IMG/VR virus record: IMGVR_UViG_3300020443_000115
Span: 1 to 43,017 of that record
Strand: one strand, 5' to 3'
Length of the DNA: 43,017 bases
Source of the DNA: a virus
Made by a program: the position numbers and the translations under genes. The notes beneath the pieces are model-generated. The model was given only the letters and a program-made list of their open reading frames with translations. It ran no database searches and was not told the DNA's origin. Of the stretch, positions 13,373 through 28,257 are shown piece after piece (the stretch's first letter is position 1; each line of letters begins with the position of its first letter).

Positions 13373-13390
13373 TTACACTAAAAAGTGTAA
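13373..13390. promoter_or_regulatory. Divergent promoter-like inverted repeat (AGTGTAA both ways)
   Basis: TTACACT at 13373-13379 and AGTGTAA at 13384-13390 form a perfect 7-bp inverted repeat separated by AAAA. It sits in the 51-bp gap between the divergent M-like gene (start 13348) and the plus-strand structural gene (start 13400). Each arm points AGTGTAA towards one of the two genes. The same heptamer occurs before other minus-strand genes, so I read it as back-to-back promoter elements or an operator. The plus-strand ATG is only 9 nt beyond the motif, which would give a leaderless mRNA if the motif acts as a -10 element. Confidence 0.6.
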
Positions 13391-14203: not shown

Positions 14204-14217
14204 GTGTAATTTGTGAT

Positions 14218-19808: not shown

Positions 19809-21167
19809 CTACCTACCGTTTATTTGAGAGGAGTGAAAAATGTTTTCGCTTTCTTTTATTTTAGCCCATTGTTTGCTTTTATCAAACGTCCAGAAATCGA
19901 TATCCGCTAAGTACTTTGCGTATACGACATGGTTCTTAGCTCCGGTTCGGTCGGCATTTTCGGCTTTATTACAATGTTCACAGGTAAAGGTGTTGGTTTT
20001 CTTATCTCTTGAACTGTTTGCCTTACTCAAGTCCAACCAGCCGCAATGTATGCATCTCCGAGAAGTATAATAACTCGGAGCGAGAATATAGGGAACCTTT
20101 CTTTCGATACATTTATCAACAAACAGTTGCTTCAGTTTGTCTTGACCGAAAGTACCGAGCTCCTCTCCCATAGCGACAGTGTCAATCGCCAAACCGTAAG
20201 ATTTTGATACTGCGTAATCTAGAATTGAATCTATAATTCCTCTTTCTTTACCGGGAAACCGAGAAGTTTCTATAAGATTCATATGTTTTTCGTGGAGTTT
20301 TTGAATCTCCAGCCTTACGGGTGTCCGTTGCTTGGATCGAACTTCTCTTTCTGAAATCTTTTTGTGAACCTTAACGATCTTGTTTAAAGATTCAATATGT
20401 TTTTCGAGAGCCGAGATAACTGGGTATGATTTTTTGGATATTTTTTCCTGCCCGAAGACATCTTCAGAAAAGTATATCCAATTTTCATTAGACTTATTAA
20501 AATCCAACCCGATAAAACCTTTTGGATAATAATCAAATTCAACCGGAACATCGACGCTTGCCACTATTCTGTCAGGTTTGCCTTCCTTACCGAATACAAT
20601 TGTCCCCCCAAACTTTTTTTCGACATTCACGTGTTCGATGTATTTTAAGGCGTTGTTTTGAATCCCTTTACACTTGGAGGATTTTCTGTACCTGACAATG
20701 GATTTGGTTCCATCTAGGTTTTTTACTTTCAGCTTTCCATTAATTTTATTTTTATAAAACTCGAAGAAACCATCTCCCATTACTAGATTATCACTTCTTA
20801 CGGCGATAAAATTGGGAAGTTTACCCTTGTTTCTTTTCTTGTAGCCTTTGTATTTTCTCAACTGTCCGGCAGTAAACATTCTTAACTGTGTCGTAACCTT
20901 AGATTTTTCATAAGGAGAAAAAATATCAGACATGAATTCTTTCATGAAATTAGACGTAGTTAACTTCTCTCCATCAGGGAGAGCTTCTCTGTGGATGTAG
21001 ACATCGTTAAATGATCCATTGATATTAATTAAAATATTGTCTCTTATTAGAGACGATATTCTTTCGTTGATCTGGATCATCAGGGGGTGGGTCTGCTTCC
21101 TGAGATTAGAAAGCCCGTTCTTGTCGGCGATAATTAGTTTTATCGCCTTTTTTACATTAATTGTCAT
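19809..21167 (-). CDS. tnpB: TnpB-family RNA-guided nuclease (IS200/IS605-type accessory protein)
   Basis: This 452-residue protein has the TnpB/Cas12-like RuvC layout. RuvC-I D222 lies in FIGLDFNKSNENW. A helical insert spans about residues 250-300. The RuvC-II region SYGLAIDTVAMGEEL (324-337) follows, then a zinc finger with C372, C375, C396 and C399, and RuvC-III D406 in NADRTGAKN. At the usual RuvC-II glutamate position I read Asp (D329), with E335/E336 nearby, so activity should not be assumed. TnpB cuts DNA guided by an RNA made from its own 3' end. No TnpA transposase is next to it, so the element is either mobilised in trans or kept as a domesticated or homing-like nuclease. It is flanked by structured non-coding DNA on both sides. 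Confidence 0.85.
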   Translation of the reverse strand: MTINVKKAIKLIIADKNGLSNLRKQTHPLMIQINERISSLIRDNILININGSFNDVYIHREALPDGEKLTTSNFMKEFMSDIFSPYEKSKVTTQLRMFTAGQLRKYKGYKKRNKGKLPNFIAVRSDNLVMGDGFFEFYKNKINGKLKVKNLDGTKSIVRYRKSSKCKGIQNNALKYIEHVNVEKKFGGTIVFGKEGKPDRIVASVDVPVEFDYYPKGFIGLDFNKSNENWIYFSEDVFGQEKISKKSYPVISALEKHIESLNKIVKVHKKISEREVRSKQRTPVRLEIQKLHEKHMNLIETSRFPGKERGIIDSILDYAVSKSYGLAIDTVAMGEELGTFGQDKLKQLFVDKCIERKVPYILAPSYYTSRRCIHCGWLDLSKANSSRDKKTNTFTCEHCNKAENADRTGAKNHVVYAKYLADIDFWTFDKSKQWAKIKESENIFHSSQINGR

Positions 21168-21270: not shown

Positions 21271-22812
21271 CTAATTTTTTTTAAATTCTGCTTTCTTTGT
21301 TCCTCTCCAATCGGGAAATTCAGTTCTTCCAAAGCCGGGACCATAAGCTGTGAGAAGGTGAACGGTGGAACCATGTTTGACAAATACTTGCCCCCAATCT
21401 TCAAATTTTAATCCGGGAATATCCATTTCGCTAACATTCATATACACGCCGTTAGAGATTAAAATGTGATCGTTGTCTCCGGCGTCCATACATCTTTGCG
21501 CCATATTGATGCCGTGACCACTGACGTTGGGGTTATTGTTTATGTCTCTTACGGGTACAACTGGACCCGTATAAAGACCATTCCTTAAGCCTATGTCTTT
21601 GCTTTTATAGCATTTCTTACCTACGTCAACAGCACATTTGAAGGCGGCGTGAACGCTGTTAAAAAATACGAGAGCCATTCCGTCTCCAGTCGGAAGAATA
21701 ATCAGCTTCCCTTGTCTTTGGGCTTGTTGGTAGCCTTGTGTTCCCTTGACGATGGCTATAAGGTCGTCCATCACTTTCTTCTGCATGGGCGTACTCTTCT
21801 TTGAGTATCCCACAATATCCATGAAGTATGTATAAGATTCACAAGGACTATCATATGTAATAGAGTCACCCTTGCAGGTAAATGGGTCTTCTCCCCACTT
21901 CCATTTAATGACTCTTGATCTTTTTAGGCGCTCTTCTTCTTTTTTAGCTTCATCAGCGGCTTCTTGTATACGAGAGTTTCTTTCTTCATGTTCTTTCTTT
22001 GATGCTTTTTCCCTTGCCTGCCTGTCGGATTTGGATTCCGTCATTTTGCCCCAGAGACTGGTGGGAGCCTTTTTAGAGTCTTGGAATTCCATGGACTTGT
22101 GTTCTTTAGGTTGATTGCTCCCTACTTGCACGGTAGACGTGATACTTGGTTGTTTTTTGTAGTTTCTGTTAAGATTCTTTTTACATCCTTTTAGTTTTAG
22201 ATAATCAAGAAATTCTTCGTTTCCATTATCCGAAGCGATCTCGTAGGGGTTCAACTGGCCATCATGACATGACCCGTTGGGATTAGCCTTGTGTTCGAAT
22301 AATATTTCGCAGATCTCTTTATTTCCTAATTCGACTGCGTAGTGGAGGGGCATCCACCCCCTATTATCTCTCCCATTTATTTTTACGCTCTCATCTTCCG
22401 CAAGGGATTCTATTTCGTCCACGTCTTCCATTTGGACAGCTTGATGAAGGGTCATTTCGTTTCCGTAAAACTTACCTCCTTTTTTCTTAAAATTTGCTAA
22501 TATCTTGATTCGGTTCGGTCCTTCGGCTACGTCCATAGGGTAGACTGCGGAGACTTTTTGGTCTCCGTTTTCCTCCAGAGCAAGGTTCCAGTCGTTTTGT
22601 TTTTTATTTTTTGGGGGTTGGCTTTTAATATTGGGCGAAATACCGCCTTCCAGTATAACTTGTACAGCTTTGGCCTTGCTTCGGTTAGAAGCGTAATGAA
22701 GAGGACTCCAGCCAAGGTCTTCGTCCAAGGATAAAAACGCTCTTTTGTTTTTAAGAGCGGCCTTGATCCCTTTTATATTACCGTTTCGCGCGAGTATGTG
22801 TAGATCCCCCAT
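21271..22812 (-). CDS. Ankyrin-repeat class III nucleotidyl cyclase
   Basis: This 513-residue protein joins ankyrin repeats (about 1-60 and 115-210, e.g. GWSPLHYAS and GWMPLHYAVELGNKEI), a charged coiled-coil linker (256-300) and a class III adenylate/guanylate cyclase domain (about 325-490). Metal-binding aspartates D332 (FMDIVGYS) and D377 (PTGDGMALVF) are present, as are the transition-state residues N436 and R440 (GINMAQR). The usual base-reading Lys before GD is replaced by Leu, as in a bacterial 'PTGDGMA' subgroup, so the cyclic nucleotide made cannot be predicted. There is no membrane segment, so it is cytosolic, with ankyrins probably binding a partner. The ATG lies 10 nt from an AGTGTAA motif. 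It follows the prepilin operon in the same direction. Confidence 0.87.
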   Translation of the reverse strand: MGDLHILARNGNIKGIKAALKNKRAFLSLDEDLGWSPLHYASNRSKAKAVQVILEGGISPNIKSQPPKNKKQNDWNLALEENGDQKVSAVYPMDVAEGPNRIKILANFKKKGGKFYGNEMTLHQAVQMEDVDEIESLAEDESVKINGRDNRGWMPLHYAVELGNKEICEILFEHKANPNGSCHDGQLNPYEIASDNGNEEFLDYLKLKGCKKNLNRNYKKQPSITSTVQVGSNQPKEHKSMEFQDSKKAPTSLWGKMTESKSDRQAREKASKKEHEERNSRIQEAADEAKKEEERLKRSRVIKWKWGEDPFTCKGDSITYDSPCESYTYFMDIVGYSKKSTPMQKKVMDDLIAIVKGTQGYQQAQRQGKLIILPTGDGMALVFFNSVHAAFKCAVDVGKKCYKSKDIGLRNGLYTGPVVPVRDINNNPNVSGHGINMAQRCMDAGDNDHILISNGVYMNVSEMDIPGLKFEDWGQVFVKHGSTVHLLTAYGPGFGRTEFPDWRGTKKAEFKKN

Positions 22813-22822
22813 ACTCTATTGG

Positions 22823-22829
22823 TTACACT
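22823..22829 (-). promoter_or_regulatory. AGTGTAA promoter-like motif before the cyclase gene
   Basis: On the minus strand AGTGTAA ends 10 nt before the cyclase ATG and overlaps the stop codon of the 53-residue protein. It has the same sequence and similar start-codon spacing as the motifs at 13384 and 28251. If used as a -10 element it would give a nearly leaderless transcript for the cyclase, separate from the pilin operon. Confidence 0.5.
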
Positions 22830-22990
22830 TAAGAATCTTCGCAATAAGCTATGTTTTCTTCTATTTCTTCATAACACCCACAACTGCTTTCACAGCAGTC
22901 ATCAAGTTTTTCGTTTTGTTTTTGGCATTCTCCGTGGCAATTATCGTCCACGCAGTCGGGGTTAGGGCAGTGCATGCGAGAGGTCGTCAT
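22829..22990 (-). CDS. 53-residue cysteine-rich miniprotein
   Basis: A small open frame with nine cysteines in 53 residues, at positions 8, 13, 18, 22, 32, 33, 37, 39 and 50, plus two His. The spacing CPNPDC, CHGEC and CC-x3-C-x-C suggests metal binding (Zn or Fe-S) or a disulfide-rich fold; no heme CxxCH is present. The C-terminal third is strongly acidic. It lies between the last small gene of the prepilin operon (24-nt gap) and the cyclase gene. TGTGTAA, a variant of the recurring motif, is 11 nt before its ATG. I do not recognise a family. The composition is far from random and supports a real gene. Confidence 0.65.
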   Translation of the reverse strand: MTTSRMHCPNPDCVDDNCHGECQKQNEKLDDCCESSCGCYEEIEENIAYCEDS

Positions 22991-23013: not shown

Positions 23014-23190
23014 TTAATCGAATATTTGATAGGAATCTCCCTGTATCTCAACGGTTTTCCCTATTTTCCACAGGGCTCTCCTAAGAACTTCTACGAAAGC
23101 TTCATCTGAAAGATCATTAGGGCACAAATGTCGGGGCGCTTCCTCCATTTTTTGTCGCCATTTCAAAGCTGTTTTCTTTATATTTTTCAT
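23014..23190 (-). CDS. Small protein coupled to the last prepilin gene
   Basis: This 58-residue protein starts at the ATG that overlaps the TGA of the preceding prepilin gene (ATGA at 23187-23190). The frame is open further upstream to 23229, but that would overlap the prepilin gene by 40 nt. It is mainly helical and basic at the N-terminus ([16 protein letters not shown]), with one Cys (HLCPND) and a [17 protein letters not shown] helix. No known domain is recognised and there is no leader or membrane segment, so it is cytoplasmic. Coupling to the prepilins suggests a related job, perhaps a chaperone or regulator (speculative). Confidence 0.65.
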
Positions 23191-23474
23191 CTTACTGTAG
23201 TTAGTCTGCTCATATGACAATCGAAGCACGATTGTTTTATTCGTGGGTAAGAATCCATCAGCTCTTTTTTTGTATAAGAAGGGTGGTCTTCATACACATC
23301 TTCATCCCAATTATCAGCGTAATAAAAAATATATAATTGTCTTTGAAAATTAAGACATTCAACTCGCTGTGCGGATCTTTTAGCTTCTACTACAGACGTC
23401 AAAAGCATAGCTGTCAGTATCCCCATGATAGCAATTGTTACCAAAAGTTCGATAAGTGTAAATCCCTTTTTCAT
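23187..23474 (-). CDS. Short type IV prepilin-like protein ending in CxxCH (pilin 4)
   Basis: This 95-residue protein has a class III leader MKKG followed by [19 protein letters not shown], with the Glu at +5 needed for pilin assembly. A helical stretch with [17 protein letters not shown] follows, then an acidic, Tyr-rich segment and a C-terminal [16 protein letters not shown] is a CxxCH motif, the signature for covalent heme c attachment, though zinc binding is possible. It is clearly paralogous to the preceding short prepilin. Both resemble the start of the long pilins upstream, truncated shortly after the point where those carry a 'CPxD' motif. The start overlaps the previous stop (TAATG). 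It would be cleaved by a host prepilin peptidase and inserted in the inner membrane. Confidence 0.85.
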
Positions 23475-23776
23475 TAATGTGGCACGCTAGCATGACAATC
23501 ATAACACTTACTTTGTATAACACTGTAGTCAGGCATTAACTCGCGTTTGACGTTGAACATCGCGATGTCTCTGTAAGAGGGATCATAATAGTCTTGTTCG
23601 TCGTGCGCTGCGAAATAATAAATAGTCAACTGTCTGCGATAGTTGTGGCATTGAGCAATTGTTGCCGCTTCCTTAGCTTTGACTATAGAAGATAATAACA
23701 GACCTGTTAGAATTCCTATAATAACAAGTACAACTAACAGCTCAATAAGAGTAAACGCTTTCTTACCATTGATCAT
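23474..23776 (-). CDS. Short type IV prepilin-like protein ending in CxxCH (pilin 3)
   Basis: I start this protein at the ATG at 23776, giving 100 residues with the leader MINGKKA then [19 protein letters not shown]. The residue before the cleavage site is Ala rather than the near-invariant Gly, so processing may be less efficient. After the transmembrane helix comes [18 protein letters not shown], a Tyr/Asp-rich segment and a C-terminal [11 protein letters not shown] with a CxxCH heme-type motif. A longer start at 23833 would place 19 extra residues before the leader, overlapping pilin 2 by 71 nt, and is unlikely. The gene overlaps pilin 2 by 14 nt and pilin 4 by one base, so all are co-translated. 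Confidence 0.83.
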
Positions 23777-24743
23777 TCCAGTACCATCCCCATGAATCTC
23801 TTCTGCCATTCCGAATATAACCATCACGTGCACCTTCTGGTCCGGTATTCCATGCGCGCATTTGCCTCTTTAAATTAAAAATCCATGGAAACCATGTGTA
23901 TTTTTCTTTTCTAAAATCTTCTATTTTAGTGGTAGATCTATCTTTTAGCCATTTCACATCTACGCTACCATACGCTCTCCTTATTCCATATTTAAAATTA
24001 GAGCCATCAATATGAAATCTAACTTGAGCGTTTACTGTTCGTTGATCTAGCCATCTTTTAGTTTCAACATGACCATCTGTAAAAGCTAGGGCAGTTCCAT
24101 CGATGTGGTAATTTCCCGGAACATCCATATCGTATACCTTATGTGTAGGCGCACCGTTGTTCATTACGACCCTAAAAGAGCCAGCATTTATAAACTCAAA
24201 TGGCATTTCTATGAACGAGAAAATATTAGAAGGGTTTTCTATTTCGTTATATTTGTGGTATATCCTCCATTCTTCATCTTTCTGTACTGGCCATCCACTC
24301 CAGCCTCCAACGTGAATGTTTACGCTATAACTTCTGTGACGTGGGAAGATGTTTCGTACCTCGCCCTCTCTGTTTGTTATTTTGAGTAAATCTTTGTCAG
24401 CTGGGCATTTAAATACACCAATAGATTTACCTACATACGGAAACAAAGGAGTACCTTCTAGAAATCTTGCTTGGTTTATATATTTAGAAAGATTTAAGCT
24501 GCCAGACATCCACGCATATGGTGCGCTTTTTTCTTGCTTCCAAGCGCTTGAATATAGTATTTTGTCGCCATGGTCATCGCTAAATATTGAATGGCCCATT
24601 TGTAATTGTTTTTGATTATTAATACATGCTACTCTTTGACCTACTGATTTAGCCTTATTGATCGCAGGGAGAAGAAGGGCAACTAAGAGCGCAATAATAC
24701 CGATAACTACTAATAATTCTACAAGAGTAAACCCTTTCTTCAT
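23763..24743 (-). CDS. Long type IV prepilin-like protein, H/DG type (pilin 2)
   Basis: This 326-residue protein starts at the ATG that overlaps the stop of pilin 1 (TGATG). The leader MKKG is followed by [19 protein letters not shown]. The periplasmic domain has [25 protein letters not shown], a [16 protein letters not shown] segment and [20 protein letters not shown], which is the histidine / DG motif region of prepilins common in Planctomycetota, Verrucomicrobiota and Lentisphaerota. It is a close paralogue of pilin 1 and shares its GWYWND end. An alternative start at 24758 adds only five residues. Such proteins are pseudopilins of type II secretion or type IV pilus-like fibres; their occurrence on a phage is unexpected. 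Confidence 0.88.
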
Positions 24744-25717
24744 CAGTAAGGGTTCCAAGTAGGATGGCTTCCCCAGCTATCGTTCCAGTACCAGCCCCAT
24801 GAAGCATATACTTTGCCATCTATAGTGCGATGATTCCCGGGCCTATTGTATCGTCCTATCCCGCCTCCGCCGCCTGACCATCTGTGACTATTGGGATCTG
24901 ATACAATTGCTCTTTGTCTAAGCCAAGCTAAATCTCTATTGTTAGGGCTTACTATTTTATCCTGATTAGTCGTCGGGTTCATCGCCTCGGATGATATATT
25001 TATTGTATCCTCCTCTAGCCATCTTTTAAATTCTACATGTGCGTCAACGAAAGAAACGACAGAGCCGTTATTGTGATAAACTCCGGGCCAGTCTTGAGAG
25101 AAAAAACTTTCACCACCTTTAAGCGTTGGCGCTACTCTAAAGTTTCCAGCATTAATAGATTGAGGTGGCATTTCAATAAAAGTAAACAATTGACTAGAGT
25201 TATGTGCATCATCGTAAGTGTGATGAACTTTGTATTGGGTATCTGACAGCCAAGGCCATCCCGACCAACCGCCAACGAAAAGATTTATACTATAAGAACG
25301 AGGTCGGTTTATAATCTTAGAATTAACTGTAACAGTTGATTTGTCGCCCGGGCAATGATATATACCCATGCCCGCATAAGGCTTTAAGGGGGAAAAGAAG
25401 AGGGGTCTATCGGTTTGACCCCACGGACCGTTACCACTCATGCTGTCGGCAACCCATGCCCACATGCCCGTAGGTTCACCGGCCCAAGCTGATGCGTAAG
25501 GAAACCTGTTTTCGTGATCTCCCGCGAACTCTGCGTAAGCGAGGTTAAGTTGGCGTTGGTTATTTATGCAGGCTGCTTGCCAGCCCGTTTGCTTAGCCGA
25601 CGATAACGCCGGGAGCAAAAGAGCTGCCAGTATCGCAATAATGGCGATGACAACCAGCAGCTCTATCAAAGTGAACCCTCTGGTTGCTTTCGCCGCAGTC
25701 AGGGTTTTTACACACAC
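24743..25717 (-). CDS. Long type IV prepilin-like protein, H/DG type (pilin 1)
   Basis: This 324-residue protein is the first gene of the prepilin operon. A GTG start is the only start after an in-frame stop. The leader ends in ATRG, followed by [19 protein letters not shown] and the [17 protein letters not shown] helix. The globular part carries [42 protein letters not shown] and [20 protein letters not shown]. The usual DG of this last motif is DA here, while the His and following segment are kept. Family members occur in large numbers in Verrucomicrobiota and relatives. An AGTGTAA motif lies 17 nt upstream. A phage pseudopilin could join or block the host pilus or secretion fibre (inference). 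Confidence 0.88.
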
Positions 25718-26954: not shown

Positions 26955-27302
26955 TTATCTCCAGACGCGATAACTATCGCTATCTTTATGAAAGGTGCTA
27001 ATCTCAATAAATTTCACTGGCTTGTCCATAGCGAAAAGTTGATGCGGTGTCAAGCGGTCTAACACAAAAGTTTCACCTTCTTCAAGCATGTGAGTAGTTT
27101 TTTCAGTGGTCTCGGTATTTAAAATGTCAACCCTCAGGGTTCCTTCAAGTATATAGAAGGTCTCATGTTTCTCTGCGTGAAAATGCATTGACCCTGCGTA
27201 GCCGGGGTTAATATAAAGGATTTTCCCGCAATAGTTTTCTTCCTTGTTATTCGCGAGCCAAAGTTCATAGCCCCAGCTCTTTTCTACTTTCTTAACGCTC
27301 AC
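26955..27302 (-). CDS. Single-domain cupin protein, sugar isomerase-like
   Basis: This 115-residue protein has both cupin motifs. The first is GSMHFHAEKHETFYILEG, giving the metal-binding H-x-H, Glu and the glycine. The second is FVLDRLTPHQLFA with the second-motif His, followed by the FIEISTFH strand. The start VEKSWGYELWLANN resembles the mannose-6-phosphate isomerase type II / phage cupins that act on sugar phosphates. A role in sugar nucleotide supply for the glycan genes at 37-43 kb is possible but unproven. It overlaps the preceding gene by 4 nt (ATGA). Confidence 0.8.
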   Translation of the reverse strand: MSVKKVEKSWGYELWLANNKEENYCGKILYINPGYAGSMHFHAEKHETFYILEGTLRVDILNTETTEKTTHMLEEGETFVLDRLTPHQLFAMDKPVKFIEISTFHKDSDSYRVWR

Positions 27303-28250: not shown

Positions 28251-28257
28251 TTACACT
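28251..28257 (-). promoter_or_regulatory. AGTGTAA promoter-like motif before the GspC-like gene
   Basis: AGTGTAA, followed by T, ends 8 nt before the ATG at 28242. The motif sits in the 28-nt gap after the Pro/Ala-rich gene. There is no Shine-Dalgarno in between, so a leaderless transcript would follow if it works as a -10 element. Confidence 0.5.

Follow-up and report, generated by a model that had tools for sequence, protein, structure and literature searches.

What would a tailed phage do with a protein that couples ankyrin repeats, which bind proteins, to a nucleotidyl cyclase domain, the type of enzyme that produces messengers such as cAMP? Phages destroy or sequester host cyclic-nucleotide signals, and the family described here would, if active, be a case of viruses that write to bacterial second-messenger signaling instead of erasing it. 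The gene lies in a 43,017-base IMG/VR virus record, which may be a fragment; the whole of this record we call the window. The window also carries lambda-type tail genes, which together with the source of the record bear out the initial annotation of this DNA as phage, as well as genes for RNR, dUTPase, and dCMP deaminase. The gene and its parts are arranged as follows:

21271–22812, minus strand: ankyrin–coiled coil–class III cyclase gene, 513 aa (open reading frame with ATG start; Pfam; family alignments A3 and A4)
22168–22812, minus strand: ankyrin repeat region, residues 1–215, with a diverged insert at ~65–110 (Ank_2, E 5.7e-20, in two stretches)
21916–22056, minus strand: charged coiled-coil linker, residues 253–299 (a single long helix, 261–299, in the AlphaFold model)
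21337–21840, minus strand: cyclase homology domain, ~residues 325–492 (profile matches to PDB class III cyclases; Foldseek)
21817–21819, minus strand: D332, predicted metal-binding Asp 1 (FMDIVGYS), invariant in A3/A4
21682–21684, minus strand: D377, predicted metal-binding Asp 2 (LPTGDGMALVF), invariant in A3/A4
21493–21507, minus strand: N436-M-A-Q-R440, predicted transition-state Asn/Arg pair, invariant, with the spacing N+4=R

The fusion of ankyrin repeats to a cyclase, first read from the letters alone, is real: the 513-residue frame combines the Ank_2 match, at 72.1 bits against a curated Pfam cutoff of 27.3, with profile matches to cyclases. AlphaFold models the ankyrin region with a pLDDT of mostly 76–94, lower around residues 70–90 and 180–190. 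The coiled coil is likely a dimerization or signaling helix, the role in dimerization being argued from class III enzymes. Three scans of viral contigs place the same architecture in ~40 IMG/VR contigs, whose proteins, as read, are 53–97% identical to that of the window and nearly all contain ankyrin, linker, and cyclase; some are partial where the contig ends inside the gene, and in L038 the reading frame is broken. The dN/dS ratio of the cyclase is ~0.016–0.033 where dS is unsaturated, indicating strong purifying selection, which is strongest in the cyclase and looser in the linker and ankyrin insert. The conservation of the whole architecture and the low dN/dS rule out a chance reading frame. 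The carriers are tailed phages that form a large uncultured group. They appear to be marine, a view that comes from the type of contigs rather than from the result of a tool. The cyclase domain finds no match among 50,697 GenBank phages, and the locus has no DNA or protein match in GenBank phages; a cellular class III query retrieves from the same 50,697 a single record, an uncultured phage of 635 kb.

On its own, the window's protein matches Pfam PF00211 (Guanylate_cyc) below threshold, at 14.7 bits and E 0.023 over residues 402–481. Family profiles (A2, A3) match solved class III cyclases, namely, 1ybt/Rv1900c (E 3.6e-5) and 3mr7 (1.2e-4), with further matches to 5oyh, 6aoa, and Ma1120. Of 297 genomes sampled from one phylum, that of the MAG containing L044, 12 encode bacterial cyclases that the family profile also matches, the best at E 2.4e-10 in one genome; L044 is itself a contig with the cyclase gene and is counted separately. 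In alignment with the bacterial cyclases, D332 falls on the Asp of FADIVGYS, D377 on the aspartate of GDG, and N436/R440 on VNIASR. As the initial annotation had read, both metal-binding Asp residues and the Asn/Arg pair that mark class III are present, and D332, D377, N436, and R440 are invariant in 18–21 aligned sequences. Structure prediction, suggested there as a check, agrees in part: the cyclase-domain model has the strand and helix order of class III (compared with the fold motif in PMC4886424) and Foldseek fills ranks 1–17 with class III cyclases, but the model has a low-confidence pLDDT of 38 and no Foldseek E falls below 0.001. Both AlphaFold runs gave low confidence for this domain, probably because the alignment held only close relatives. 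Taken together, the profile matches to structures and bacterial cyclases, the fold topology, and the Foldseek ranks make homology to class III convincing, and the domain appears to be a divergent class III nucleotidyl cyclase that we infer to be catalytically active.

Among cellular proteins, the profile best matches (E to 2.4e-10) Bacteroidota cyclases with an N-terminal catalytic domain (L080–L091). These share the metal-binding Asp residues, the Asn/Arg pair, and the class III core with the phage protein, but they lack ankyrin repeats, have the reversed domain order, and are separated by a long branch; several carry TPR-like C-terminal parts. A tree built from 41 domains groups the phage family in one clade with a stem length of 5.67, on the side of these N-terminal-domain cyclases and apart from a strong PycC match (L092). 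Since the two cellular sets were picked by two profiles and the branches are long, the tree says "not a close PycC" rather than giving an ancestry.

The base pocket is less conventional than the catalytic center. In class III enzymes adenine is selected by Lys plus Asp, the pair being K101/D157 in Ma1120, and guanylyl cyclases have Glu at the first position (PMC4215837). By motif spacing, the phage cyclase has L373 at the Lys/Glu position and N429 at the Asp position, and thus neither the Lys/Asp for ATP nor the Glu for GTP. We keep the family in class III because base-selecting positions differ among class III enzymes and are not what defines the class; with this noncanonical pair, the product nucleotide is not predictable from sequence. 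The best solved-structure matches by profile and fold are two mycobacterial adenylyl cyclases, Rv1900c/LipJ (1ybt) and Ma1120 (4wp9, 5d0e), which carry other partner domains than the phage protein. In Ma1120, A164/R168 have the same spacing as N436/R440, whereas K101/D157 stand where the phage protein has L373/N429.

One cyclase gene lies outside the viral collection, on L044, a Flavobacteriales MAG contig that is the sole match in genome_contigs. A host cellular origin of that gene was rejected, as the contig encodes PhoH and a terminase, along with a lambda-type tail protein that shares 54% identity with that of the window; these genes identify it as a phage contig related to the window's phage. 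It provides a weak hint that Flavobacteriales are hosts. Shine–Dalgarno sequences precede 5 of 30 genes versus a 14% background, indicating no Shine–Dalgarno use, which is compatible with Bacteroidota or PVC-type hosts and not decisive. The pattern matches include 542 relatives of the L044 terminase family; 80 of them were kept, and 15 of these have loci that can be judged near the terminase. The cyclase gene lies 6–8 kb upstream of the terminase in 7 of these 15 and is absent from the other 8, several of which have the flanking genes c14 and c1 adjacent or nearly so. The cyclase gene is therefore an accessory gene at a preferred site, and its presence and absence at one site within one terminase lineage is new here.

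Timing is suggested by a short motif upstream of the gene:

22823–22828, minus strand: promoter-like motif GTGTAA, 10 bp upstream of the cyclase start codon (enriched; kept before most cyclase genes)

GTGTAA(T) is found 8–10 bp before the start codons of the cyclase and several other genes, with further copies in the window at, for example, 13385–13390 (plus), 14204–14209 (plus), and 28251–28256 (minus). Counted within 40 bp, it precedes 8 of the 53 genes in the window against 0.50 expected, a 16-fold excess, and 11 of 42 on the L044 contig against 0.35 expected, where these include the cyclase, a portal-like gene, tail-fiber genes, and the PhoH gene. Most cyclase genes keep the motif though their flanks differ, and a 200 kb relative has a TAAATA-type motif in its place. 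GTGTAA(T) is probably a phage-specific short-leader promoter. That the cyclase gene shares it with portal-like and tail-fiber genes is also new here, and makes late expression likely; by this reasoning, transcription of the cyclase is probably phage-programmed, short-leader, and late.

From the architecture, catalytic residues, purifying selection, presence and absence in one lineage, and promoter motif, all read in sequence, we infer activity, dimerization, late timing, and host signaling as the target. The explanation we lean toward, at slightly better than even confidence, is that of a late, active, probably dimeric cyclase, steered by an ankyrin-bound partner, that alters host cyclic-nucleotide signaling. 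Two copies would pair through the coiled coil to form a head-to-tail catalytic dimer, and a phage or host protein, bound by the ankyrin repeats, would switch the enzyme or position it. The soluble cyclase, acting late in infection, would then raise the level of a cyclic mononucleotide, and this product would act on host receptors, as the phage has no recognizable receptor of its own. Against this explanation stand the subthreshold Pfam match, L373/N429, the pLDDT of 38, the Foldseek E values above 0.001, and the lack of the gene in about half of the relatives that could be judged. That these phages carry such a well-conserved fusion gene suggests that they rewire the internal signaling of the host during infection, and the family offers an expressible protein with defined catalytic residues for testing. 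Full-text searches of open-access papers turned up neither a phage ankyrin-cyclase nor a conserved phage class III cyclase, and nucleotidyl cyclases and ankyrins are both absent from the text of a survey covering 224 jumbo phages (PMC7824862). More tentatively, and in our view rather improbably, the family may be a lineage-level signaling enzyme of these phages: a class III cyclase whose base-selecting pocket is new, held by its ankyrin repeats to a virion or host partner, and used late in infection to mimic or seize a second-messenger circuit of the host; its product would possibly be a nonstandard cyclic nucleotide.

The rival explanations follow, from the one for which the evidence leaves most room to the one for which it leaves least: a decoy, a defense role, and pilus control. 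The same noncanonical pocket could belong to a catalytically dead or dominant-negative protein, acting through its cyclase or ankyrin domain, that dimerizes with a host cyclase, for example one of a defense system, or soaks up substrate or partner. Ankyrin repeats are binding modules, and the stem of 5.67 sets the family far from every cellular cyclase compared, both of which would suit a decoy. However, all four catalytic residues are invariant, when a decoy would have no need of both metal-binding Asp residues, and conservation within the protein is highest in the cyclase; we consider a decoy unlikely.

The initial annotation also raised a tie to Pycsar, whose PycC cyclases (clades A–E) resemble the phage cyclase in having a class III core without the canonical adenylyl/guanylyl base-selecting residues. 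The PADLOC PycC profile gives only E 0.02 with the phage cyclase. PycC enzymes are characterized by F60/K104/F109 in clade D and F100/R142/Q144 in clade E (PMC11224242). K104/F109 and R142/Q144 are unmatched in the phage cyclase. Where PycC has F60/F100, two residues ahead of the first Asp, the phage protein likewise has Phe (F330), a residue common there in class III cyclases. Pycsar has an adjacent receptor partner, PycTM or PycTIR; in 17 viral records, fragments among them, no cyclic-nucleotide receptor (PF00027) scored above cutoff, whether beside the cyclase or elsewhere. The one PF00027 signal across these records is subthreshold and comes from a cupin protein of the window (26955–27302, minus strand; Cupin_2, E 2.2e-10). 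With the profile at E 0.02, a branch separate from L092 (with the long-branch caveat), and no credible receptor in the 17 records, membership in Pycsar was rejected, and the tie is not supported.

A wider role in superinfection or defense would have the ankyrin part sense a competing phage and the product, a cyclic pyrimidine or other nucleotide, trigger a Pycsar-type or similar host receptor against it. The accessory pattern of presence and absence would suit such a role, as would a divergent cyclase that, like PycC enzymes, uses other residues at the base-selecting positions. Yet the profile score, the separate branch of L092, the agreement with PycC residues only at the common F330, and the lack of a receptor gene in the 17 viral records all argue the other way, and the cyclase is a single conserved gene without a fixed partner; we regard this role as quite unlikely.

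Directly upstream of the cyclase is a small Cys-rich reading frame of 53 aa (22829–22990, minus strand), which has a conserved counterpart in L009 and a related stretch in L005. Beyond it, a cluster of prepilin-like genes (23187–25717, minus strand) includes two of 320–330 aa with an H-X9-DG-like motif. Pilins thus do adjoin the cyclase, as first annotated, and prepilin-like genes are upstream of it in the window and on five other cyclase contigs, which is what one would expect if the product regulated host pili or the phage's own pilin-like genes. This is not a specific association, however: prepilin-like genes occur in 56 viral loci, the cyclase is present at only 5 of the 22 with at least 4 kb downstream, and most cyclase loci have no pilins. 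A pilus operon was rejected on these counts, the earlier proposal of a link to pilus control is weak, and we consider control of pili highly improbable.

None of the neighbors is constant beside the cyclase: the prepilins are optional, and so are a TnpB-like gene and a small lipoprotein. The TnpB/Cas12f-like protein, with a zinc ribbon (PF07282, E 1.2e-10), is encoded directly downstream (19809–21167, minus strand), and its relatives are near the cyclase in L002, L015, and L009. It was rejected as a partner, since position and distance vary and identity is 28–42% outside L002. In this protein an Asp apparently replaces the usual RuvC-II Glu (AIDTVA). The small lipoprotein (c10; L044 6082–6522 and relatives) was likewise rejected as the second gene of a fixed two-gene cassette, as it is also on contigs without the cyclase. 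It is often directly downstream of the cyclase gene, has a lipobox and a DYPKHRTMSFKCP motif, and is possibly an outer-membrane spanin or an exclusion protein.
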